Source: Diphasiastrum complanatum (taxonomy: Eukaryota > Streptophyta > Lycopodiopsida > Lycopodiales > Lycopodiaceae). Taken from it: a DNA stretch of 64,000 nt. The notes under the pieces are model-generated. The model was not told the origin of the DNA and did not search any database. It worked only from the letters and a program-made list of their open reading frames with translations. The stretch lies in contig CM055095.1 of assembly GCA_029204225.1 (NCBI GenBank), positions 45,805,446 to 45,869,445 on the forward strand, given 5' to 3'. Shown in pieces: positions 2,136 through 45,067 of this stretch. Made by a program: the position numbers and the translations under genes. Position 1 is the first letter of the stretch. Each line of letters opens with the position of its first letter.

Positions 2136-2398
2136 ACTGGTTGCTTTTACAGCATCAGCATAGCAACAGCAGCAGCAGTATCATAGCCTTGACATCTTGA
2201 CATAGATACAGATGATTATTATGCGCACACATACTCTCGCATACATGTCTATTTTAGCTTTTTAGTTGTACTAGATGTTTTATTACAGTTTTGGAGGCGT
2301 TTTATACGCTCCCACGGTTACCACATACTTGACATGTACTTCATTAGTCTTATATGCCTTTTGGCATGGAAAAGACATTAATAAAGCTTTCTTTCTTT
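2136..2398 (+). mobile_element. LINE copy P1 (subfamily A), 5'-truncated 3' end
   Basis: Only the last few ORF2 codons and the 3' UTR of a subfamily A element remain. From about 2190 it parallels the P2 3' UTR (7364-7557), including the GGAG-x-CGT...ACG-CTCC hairpin, the TGCC-TTTT-GGCA hairpin and GACATTAATAAAGC just before the CT array. Its left edge is blurred by a CAG/CAT-rich stretch, and unlike the other copies it does not abut a CT array on the left. P1 supplies the (TC)n tail into which P2 is inserted. Confidence 0.75.
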
Positions 2399-2445
2399 CT
2401 CTCTCTCTCTCTCTCTCTCTCTCTCTCTCTCTCTCTCTCTCTCTC
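2391..2445. repeat. (TC)n tail of P1 / 5' junction of P2
   Basis: A CTTT-type transition (2389-2400) runs into pure CT to 2445. P2 5' sequence begins at 2446 with no intervening DNA. Confidence 0.95.
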
Positions 2446-2510
2446 CGCGATGGTGATGGCTGTCCATCGCTGATCTCTCTCCCCCTCTCCCGCCGTCCTC
2501 TCCCACCTCC

Positions 2511-3702
2511 ATGGCACGCAAAACCAGGGGGAGCCCTTGCTCCCCCACTCCTCCCCACCCCCCTCCATCACCCTCTACCCCACTCCCTTCCTCCGCTCTA
2601 CCTACTGCTCCGCCCCCCTCCCTCCGCTCCACCTGCTGCTCCACCCCCCTCCTCCGCTCCACCTCCCTCCACTCCACCCGCTGCTCCGCCCCCCTCCTCC
2701 GTTTCACCTCCCTCCACTCCATCTGCTGCCCACCAGCCACCCTCCGCTCCACCTGCTGCCCACCACCCCTCCTCAGCTCCACCCGCTACCCTGCCCTACC
2801 CATCTGCTGGTTCGACCTCTTCCTCCGCTCCACCTGTTGCCCAGCCACCCTCCTCTGCTCCACCTGAGCAACAGGCCCCTCCTGCTGCGCAACAGCAATC
2901 CCACTCAAGCCCTCCCTCATCCCTTGTCCCTTCGACTCCCATCTCTACCAACGCTGCTCCAGACACCCCCTTCTTGTCTCATGCCGACTACACCACCTCC
3001 AAATCCTTCGAGAAGTTCCTAGCCTACCAACTGAAAGAACTGAAGGCAGATGTGCAAACTCTGAAACTGGAAATCATCCACCTACGCACAGAGAACCAAC
3101 AACTCCAAACAGAAATGGAAAATAAATATGCTTCCCAGCCAGAAGAAGAGACAAAGCTGAAGATTCAAGATCTGGAACAGCAACTGAGCCAGCACAAAGA
3201 ATCGACCAAAACATGGGCTTCTATCATCACCAACAACAAAGCTACCAGCCCACCTTGGACAGCCTATGGCGGAAGTAAGTCTCCCCCCTTTTCATCATTC
3301 ATTTCCACTACTCTTACGGAAGAGAAACTCCGAGATTCCAAGGCTCTCAATATTAGGGTACGAGGCATCGTGGACACCCAAAATGCCATTGACGAAGCAA
3401 AAAGATTTTTATGCACTACCCTAGGACACAATGCAGATGGTTTGGATACAGCATGGCGTACTAGAAAAGACACCGCTACCTTGATCCTCCGCTTCACGTC
3501 ACATACATATCGTAAGGCAACCTTGCGGAAAAGAACCAAATTGAGAGACACCAAAACCTTCATGGATGATGACTTTACCTATATCCAAGTTGAAGAGAGA
3601 CGCCAAGCACTCCAAACCGTCAAAGCGACCGGAAGACGAGTGATCTATCGTGATGGAGTTGTTTGGTACCTCGATGGTACTGCATCCGGAAACAACCTAT
3701 AG
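2511..3702 (+). pseudogene. LINE ORF1 protein (P2), frameshifted in the proline-rich part
   Basis: RNA-binding chaperone-type ORF1. I chose ATG 2511 because ORF1 of P6, P7 and M5 also starts ATGGC (Met-Ala). The start lies in a different frame from the downstream body, so one indel sits in the Pro/Ser/Ala-rich segment (about 2520-2960). After it comes a coiled coil (about 2990-3200; leucine-rich KELKADVQTLKLEII) ending KTWAS, then an RRM-like domain beginning ALNIRVRGI and containing MDDDFTYIQ, and a C-terminal part with RRVIYRDG. Coiled coil, RRM and CTD in this order match the L1 ORF1p (Transposase_22) layout. It ends in TAG 3700-3702. Confidence 0.85.
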
Positions 3703-44100: not shown

Positions 44101-44618
44101 GATATCGTATAGGACAGCTTCGAGTCTCTTCTCATCAGCTTGCTATCGAGACAGGTAGATACACAGACACTCCCAGATTGCAGCGGATATGTCAGCTTTG
44201 TTCTCTTCAGGAGGTGGAAGATGAGTTTCATTTCATCTTTCGCTGCCCAGTATACTATGAGATTAGAGGACGATACCATTGTTTATACCGAGATATTCCC
44301 CTCACGTTGAGCTCCTTCCTCGAGTATCCAGATGCTAGATGTGTGGGTCTTCTTTTGAGAGAGATGTATATTTTATGAGCTTCACTTCTACCTACGCTCT
44401 CAGATATGGATTCCAGTCAGGCTCACATTACTCAGTTCTTCCAGAAGCGAGACAGAGTGGATATTTCGGTTGCGGATTTTGACGTCCCCGTCCGAAGATC
44501 GAAGACACAGAGAGTTTCGGCTCGATCCAGTGCTACTAGATCTTCATACGCCTCCCACCAGCCTACATCACGACCCACTACTACCATCACTCATTACTTT
44601 CAGCTTGCTCGTAGCTAG
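41067..44618 (+). pseudogene. LINE ORF2 (P7), premature stop near the end
   Basis: Endonuclease (WNCNG, AETHES, GDFNAR), RT (FVDFRKAFDS, YADD) and CCHC finger are all intact. TGA at 44376-44378 replaces Arg (CGA in P6) just after MYIL, removing the QAHITQFF and THYF tail motifs. Translation would stop there, about 80 residues short. The remainder stays open to TAG at 44616-44618. Confidence 0.93.
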
Positions 44619-44862
44619 TTTCCTCCGCGGAGCAGGAGGTTAAGCTCTTGCTTTGTACCCTCACCAGCTGGTGGTCAAGCTTGGATACTTTTTCTCTTAG
44701 AGACAGAGAGATCGATATTTTAGTTTTAGTTTTACTGTCTTTTCATTGGTAAATAAGTCCTTATGCGGACAATGCTTCTCACATTTTGTACTCTCTTTTG
44801 TCTTATGTGCCCCTGGGCACCAAAAGACGTTAATAATAATAATTCTAATTCTAATTCTAATT
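44619..44862 (+). other. P7 3' UTR and terminal structure
   Basis: Same as P6: CACCAGCTGGTG, GTGCCC-CT-GGGCAC, GACGTTAATAA, three TTCTAA units, then CT. Confidence 0.8.
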
Positions 44863-45067
44863 CTCTCTCTCTCTCTCTCTCTCTCTCTCTCTCTCTCTCT
44901 CTCTCTCTCTCTCTCTCTCTCTCTCTCTCTCTCTCTCTCTCTCTCTCTCTCTCTCTCTCTCTCTCTCTCTCTCTCTCTCTCTCTCTCTCTCTCTCTCTCT
45001 CTCTCTCTCTCTCTCTCTCTCTCTCTCTCTCTCTCTCTCTCTCTCTCTCTCTCTCTCTCTCTCTCTC
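44863..45067. repeat. (TC)n tail of P7, about 204 bp
   Basis: Longest CT array of the window; the near-identical copy P6 has about 78 bp. Unique DNA follows at 45068. Confidence 0.97.

Follow-up and report, generated by a model that had tools for sequence, protein, structure and literature searches.

The 64,000-nucleotide stretch of Diphasiastrum complanatum DNA analyzed in the present study (contig CM055095.1, positions 45,805,446 to 45,869,445, forward strand; hereafter the window) contains one family of long interspersed nuclear elements (LINEs), arranged as two head-to-tail trains and one lone copy. The 13 copies are numbered P1 to P7 (plus strand) and M1 to M6 (minus strand), apparently as in an earlier note on this DNA. 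Neighboring copies are separated by a TC array, as read on the element sense strand. We consider it very probable that this family of non-long terminal repeat (non-LTR) retrotransposons integrates, in one orientation, into pre-existing (TC)n/(GA)n arrays. This assessment is based on filled and empty sites, constant orientation, the open reading frames (ORFs) of P6, and the presence of TC on both sides of full-length and truncated copies.

P6 (10121-15011, plus strand) is a full-length young copy and served as the reference. Both of its ORFs are open. ORF1 (10311-11219) encodes 302 amino acids, for which a structure model of low confidence (pLDDT 55) predicts a long helix (residues 53-132) and, in the C-terminal part, helices mixed with strands. 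No Pfam family matched ORF1 at 0.001, and a threshold of 10 gave sub-threshold matches only, several of them to coiled-coil families. ORF2 (11268-14768) encodes 1166 amino acids and matches Exo_endo_phos (PF03372, residues 6-257) and RVT_1 (PF00078, residues 516-767) above the Pfam cut-off; its structure model aligns with LINE-1 ORF2p across 854 residues. These matches and the model identify the family as an apurinic/apyrimidinic endonuclease (APE)-type non-LTR retrotransposon, the APE-like endonuclease and the reverse transcriptase (RT) both being encoded by ORF2. The 3' ends are uniform (19 read) and the 5' ends are variable, as expected for a LINE with frequent 5' truncation. RT bit scores were 75.5 for human L1 and 87.1 for R2, and L1 was thus no better a match than R2. 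A protein search returned mostly unnamed relatives, the best with 41% identity, and the top-scoring named match was a clam protein (23%). A D. complanatum protein matched over 7% of the query, with 59% identity in that piece. The 3' end of P6 consists of TAATTC repeats (14990-15014) leading into (TC)40 (15012-15091).

The plus-strand train extends from P1 to P6, at about 2266 to 15091. It starts with the tail of P1 (2266-2397, start approximate), the 3' remnant of an older copy identified from its sequence and a tail motif at 2374. A (TC)24 array (2398-2445) leads into P2 (2446-7557), a full-length copy of a divergent subfamily with tblastn matches to ORF1 at 2962-3675 and, in several pieces, to ORF2 at 3754-7263. 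The arrays that follow were taken from an array list, supplemented by junction reading, and most serve two copies: (TC)72 (7558-7701) is the tail of P2 and the 5' flank of P3 (7702-9120), (TC)36 (9121-9192) the tail of P3 and the 5' flank of P4 (9193-9815), and (TC)25 (9816-9865) the tail of P4 and the 5' flank of P5 (9866-10068). P6 begins directly after (TC)26 (10069-10120). P3 and P4 were delimited by sequence comparison and tblastn and are truncated at the 5' end; P4 has no tail motif, yet ends in (TC)25. P5 lacks the LINE 3' end and is an internal piece matching about residues 464-514 of ORF2; it has TC on both sides and ends in CCACCC immediately before the TC. Priming may have occurred there at a pyrimidine stretch within the element, or the remainder may have been deleted later. 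Beyond the train, a (TC)30 array at 16247-16307 has no LINE beside it; it lies in non-LINE DNA and represents an open target.

The minus-strand train was delineated by tblastn and tail motifs and extends head to tail from a tail at 28696 to about 16760. Its arrays are given as read on the sense strand. M1 is an old copy (28683-34932) in two pieces, 28683-29118 and 34239-34932; an LTR-type element at 29119-34098, recognized by eye because positions 29119 and 34098 show the same sequence, seems to split it. M2 (25361-28662), M3 (22123-25282), and M4 (21563-22073) are truncated and are flanked 5' by (TC)10 (28663-28682), (TC)39 (25283-25360), and (TC)24 (22074-22122), respectively. The tail of M4 consists of TTC units and then TC. 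A (TC)6 array (21551-21562) lies between this tail and the 5' end of M5 (17129-21550), which reaches into its 5' untranslated region (UTR) and matches only residues 252-299 of ORF1. M6 (about 16761-17113, tail motif at 16793) is a short truncated copy with (TC)7 at its start near 17113.

The lone copy, P7 (40057-44861, plus strand), is full-length and young, and lies between (TC)40 (39977-40056) and (TC)103 (44862-45067). It is 99.5% identical to P6 from P6 position 167 onward; the other window copies belong to divergent subfamilies with about 66-83% identity to P6 in matching pieces. In P7, 63 bases and (TC)9 separate the 5' (TC)40 from the segment in common with P6. We read the 63-base piece as a 5' UTR variant because a copy elsewhere in the genome, L048, shares its end (ATCGCGCGA before TC). 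The 5' UTR is strongly unlike between copies that are more than 99% identical elsewhere (10121-10290 versus 40057-40137 in the window; also L041 and L048). Some copies have tandem GCTGGTGCGCTGCCCGCC units and others have other sequence, as if the 5' end were often exchanged.

The earlier note had claimed that TC lies directly 5' of every copy except P1 and M1 and that every copy keeping its 3' end finishes in (TC)n. Both claims hold in the window: 11 of the 13 copies abut TC at the 5' end, with the same two exceptions, and all 11 family tail motifs run into TC, the last one on the minus strand into a run of only four units. The sequence of P1 has no array on its 5' side. M1 has no TC at the far end in the sequence inspected, and this far end may not be its true 5' end. 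A tail-motif match at 52276 was not part of the family and was discarded.

We then surveyed the whole assembly (1.74 Gb) with the 3' end of P6 (426 bases) as the query. The best 40 of 1571 candidates were scored, namely, P6 itself and 39 others, and all were 100% identical to the P6 3' end. These 40 copies are therefore young. The expected 5' end was fetched for 39 copies and further upstream sequence for 14 of them (6 + 8), which allowed the 5' junction to be read in 33. A (TC)n array of 7 to 72 units abuts the element in 31 of these 33 junctions, always with TC on the element sense strand (31/31). The 3' flanks begin with (TC)6 to (TC)93 in 19 of 19 cases. The earlier note had named a majority of 5' flanks free of TC arrays as the outcome that would speak against targeting; the tabulation gave the opposite.

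The element itself might generate the 5' TC, either from a TC-rich 5' end of its RNA or by addition at joining, with the target being random. Short TC runs do occur in the 5' UTR, such as (TC)6 in P6 and (TC)7 in L038, L043, L081, L083, and L085, and in several copies starting in the 5' UTR, this region includes an inner (TC)7-8 in addition to the outer array that was counted. However, TC was found not only at all 26 junctions of copies starting in the 5' UTR, but also at five of the seven junctions of copies truncated in the ORFs (L052, L053, L054, L094, and L099). Moreover, 16 of 29 classified insertions sit in a pre-existing tail, and the empty sites described below already hold the array. 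We regard an origin of the 5' TC from the element as scarcely credible, and reject the view that it is part of the element on the grounds of the ORF-truncated copies and the empty sites.

Searches with flank pairs covered two insertions, L042 and L046, and an empty site was found for both. The outer flanks of L042 occur together elsewhere without a LINE: the filled site reads GGTCA(TC)24-LINE-(TC)8AGTG, and the empty site GGTCA(TC)101AGTG. At L046, the filled site ATCAAC(TC)29-LINE-(TC)14AATT corresponds to the empty site ATCAAC(TC)21AATT, which is located on another chromosome-size contig with 89% identity over query positions 99-431 of 431. The bases adjacent to the array are unchanged at both loci, and, therefore, the LINE split an existing array. 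We concluded that the (TC)n array predates the LINE insertion at both sites, and we consider this result decisive. As judged from the 5' junctions, the 3' flanks, and the two empty sites, the family behaves as a microsatellite-specific LINE, which inserts into an array of a single unit that is already present and has the same repeat on both sides. Selection of (GA)n/(TC)n by the LINE, as proposed in the earlier note, is supported by the 31 TC junctions, the constant orientation, and these empty sites.

L042 and L069 lie 1.3 Mb apart on contig C5, at 33.47 Mb and 34.78 Mb. Their sequences are nearly identical but oppositely oriented, and only one of the two holds the LINE. They represent either an inverted duplication or a haplotype that was retained during assembly. 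The flank search for L046 also returned a duplicate with the LINE inside (L091).

Landing sites were classed by tail-motif pattern for 29 junctions. Another LINE's tail precedes the junction in 16 of them but not in the other 13; L094, outside this set, is a seventeenth tail case. The 13 include L029, which has a LINE tail some 70 bases further upstream. The left flank of L053 has no tail motif and was classed as other. The non-LINE sites include a probable LTR-element end at L042/L063, recognized by eye from a sequence resembling a primer-binding site, and CA-rich DNA at L043 and L087, where the junction itself is TC. Insertion behind the tails of other LINEs, as at 16 of the 29 junctions, explains the head-to-tail trains.

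Trains could also form if copies multiplied as blocks by tandem or ectopic recombination between TC arrays rather than by targeted insertion. The head-to-tail order in the window and the duplication of at least one LINE-holding block (L091) are consistent with this view. However, none of the 29 left flanks is identical to another; where two of them do match, the shared sequence is a LINE tail or, in one pair, CA-rich DNA. L030 and L044 are the most similar, with 98% identity over 100 bases of a LINE tail, and have different right flanks. Furthermore, the truncation points differ, and the filled and empty sites differ by a single LINE with unchanged bases adjacent to the array. Recombination of blocks is very unlikely as a general explanation. 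Based on the flank comparison, we rejected block duplication for the young copies; it could apply to a few.

Chance expectation was estimated from random genomic points, rather than from other LINE families, in 20 random 10-kb stretches (200 kb, including 8.5 kb of N). This sample contained 13 AG/TC arrays of at least 12 bases. Of 382,924 points, each taken with its strand, 343 (9.0e-4) had such an array directly upstream; arrays carried by LINEs were counted as well. The binomial figure is about 2e-86 for 29 of 31 TC junctions, as computed before the last two of the 33 were read.

A general liking for microsatellites, or for open, unstable DNA in which TC is merely the commonest array, would also produce TC junctions. 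AG/TC indeed ranked first among the units of the random sample (13 of 39 arrays), L050 is inserted in (TTC)n, and L043 and L087 lie near CA-rich DNA. In contrast, two thirds of the sample arrays consist of other units, whereas TC, always in the same orientation, accounts for 31 of the 32 junctions that have an array. A preference this general is very improbable.

Several observations weigh against targeting of (TC)n. The 5' junction of L050 is (TTC)n. L051 has no 5' array, although its 3' side is (TC)10; its flanks have only a 6-base word in common, which is not a clear duplication, and an ordinary target duplication was rejected. L041 is a weaker case: the array abutting it is only (TC)7, and a (TC)37 sits 77 bases further upstream, with the intervening 77 bases matching nothing in the other fetched sequence. 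The copies sampled are all located on contigs 1-8 and are the most similar ones, and are thus young rather than random. The 5' junctions of six of the 39 copies were not reached (L092, L093, L095, L096, L097, and L098), including the apparent chimera of subfamilies, L092. Among the older pieces found in random DNA, only one of five has TC at the 5' end (L010 at 1764, directly after (TC)10); it was not seen in L010 at 486, L011, L017, or L024, although L024 does end in a TC tail. Lastly, an inverted piece of the same family lies upstream of the (TC)72 of L035, forming a head-to-head pair across one array, and this piece meets GA, not TC, at its truncated end. Twin priming was rejected for L035 because the forward part reaches the 5' UTR, and the inverted piece cannot be the missing upstream part.

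The young copies also show structural variation. L049 and L093 have internal deletions (about 1244-2111 and 2895-3607 in P6-based positions). In L092, the young 3' end continues in register from a divergent subfamily, as if by template switching or gene conversion.

We propose the following mechanism, the steps of which are drawn from the established knowledge of target-primed reverse transcription. The APE-type endonuclease would nick the (GA)n strand, and the UC-rich 3' end of the RNA would pair with the exposed (GA)n 3' end. The RNA would then be copied by target-primed reverse transcription, with the cDNA stopping at a variable point. The cDNA 3' end would then be attached to the (TC)n upstream, in many cases at a C common to both. 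Each new copy would carry or restore adjacent (TC)n, and its tail may become the landing site for the next copy, giving rise to head-to-tail trains.

The joining step was analyzed in 19 copies (18 and L099). Eight have an unambiguous template; for the other 11, the start lies in the variable 5' UTR or more than one template is possible. In seven of the eight (L035, L036, L042, L049, L052, L053, and L054, not L099), the break is immediately preceded by an element C, against an expectation of about a quarter. Therefore, element and array usually have one base or more in common. This lends some support to joining at a shared base, as judged from the junctions.

Targeting may alternatively reside in the RNA tail, which would pair with any nicked (GA)n end while the endonuclease is unspecific. 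This is a variant of the mechanism and not of the target, and its odds overlap with those of integration into pre-existing arrays; we regard it as a tentative possibility. Several subfamilies differ in the sequence immediately preceding the tail end (AAGCTTTC, TTTC, TTC, or TAATTC units), and all of these tails finish in TC, which fits pairing as a factor. The single insertion in (TTC)n (L050) and the end of P5 in TC at an internal pyrimidine stretch point in the same direction. However, the present data do not separate pairing from endonuclease choice, and telomere-directed LINEs use both.

Insertion into pre-existing (TC)n arrays has counterparts in animals. Kibi of fish, a Tx1-clade LINE, reportedly has a (TC)n target, as described by Kojima and Fujiwara in 2004. 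The present family resembles Kibi as an APE-type LINE directed to what is said to be the same repeat, and differs in that its host is a plant; the two are likened by target and endonuclease type. Waldo and Mino (R1 clade) and the telomeric TRAS and SART are arthropod elements with an APE endonuclease and simple tandem repeat targets. They share with the present family this endonuclease and insertion in one orientation into simple tandem repeats, and differ in host and in the repeat used. We suggest that the present family works like the animal microsatellite-directed LINEs, the likeness being one of behavior.

KibiFr1 is mentioned in a part of PMC6515669. The relevant part of PMC4640811 describes Tx1 and R1 as target-specific APE clades and Togen of fish as (TG)n-specific. 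HERO and Togen, as presented there, have microsatellite targets in common with the present family; however, they belong to restriction-like-endonuclease groups, in contrast to the APE fold found here. Regarding plants, Table 3 of PMC3747384 lists LINE tails of plants and green algae, with (CA)n and others in algae and no (TC)n in that table. The same source, in the sections concerned, reports simple-repeat tails for algal RTEX and a poly(A) tail in 224 of 233 families of flowering-plant L1. The difference from the present family is that tails, not target arrays, are described in these sections. RTE elements of Lepidoptera generate microsatellites, which the passage concerned in PMC2887409 attributes to slippage during retrotransposition. 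Simple repeats are associated with LINE 3' ends in both cases; however, the array of the present family is also located 5' and is pre-existing. We rejected such 3' slippage next to an unrelated target because TC also abuts the 5' end of the element and is present at both empty sites.

Other repeats in the window were noted. Positions 1-1770, upstream of P1, are part of a gypsy-like LTR element, with RT, RNase H, and an integrase-like reading recognized by eye. Telomere-like TTTAGGG/CCCTAAA units occur inside the chromosome at 46302-46353 and about 39865-39930, and also at L029 and L099, some of them near LINE insertions. An imperfect TG-rich array of about 350 bases is located at 55335-55683.

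Land-plant LINEs are mostly treated as unspecific inserters. Our literature searches, which covered few subscription journals and mostly listings, found no plant LINE directed to microsatellites. The earlier note likewise knew of no described (TC)n-directed APE LINE in plants, and a plant microsatellite-directed LINE appears to be undescribed so far. A young plant family confined to one microsatellite would add a new case of target choice to those of animals. It may also provide a natural test between endonuclease choice and pairing of the tail with the target, since one target is common to subfamilies that differ in the sequence preceding the tail. The family is a possible source of the abundant TC arrays in this genome. 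We give an even chance to a self-seeding scenario, in which the LINE inserts into (TC)n, is itself bordered by (TC)n at either end, offers its tail as the preferred next site, builds trains, and has itself made much of the (TC)n of the genome, array targeting having arisen in this plant lineage separately from animal R1 and Tx1. Such a LINE would build its own landing sites.
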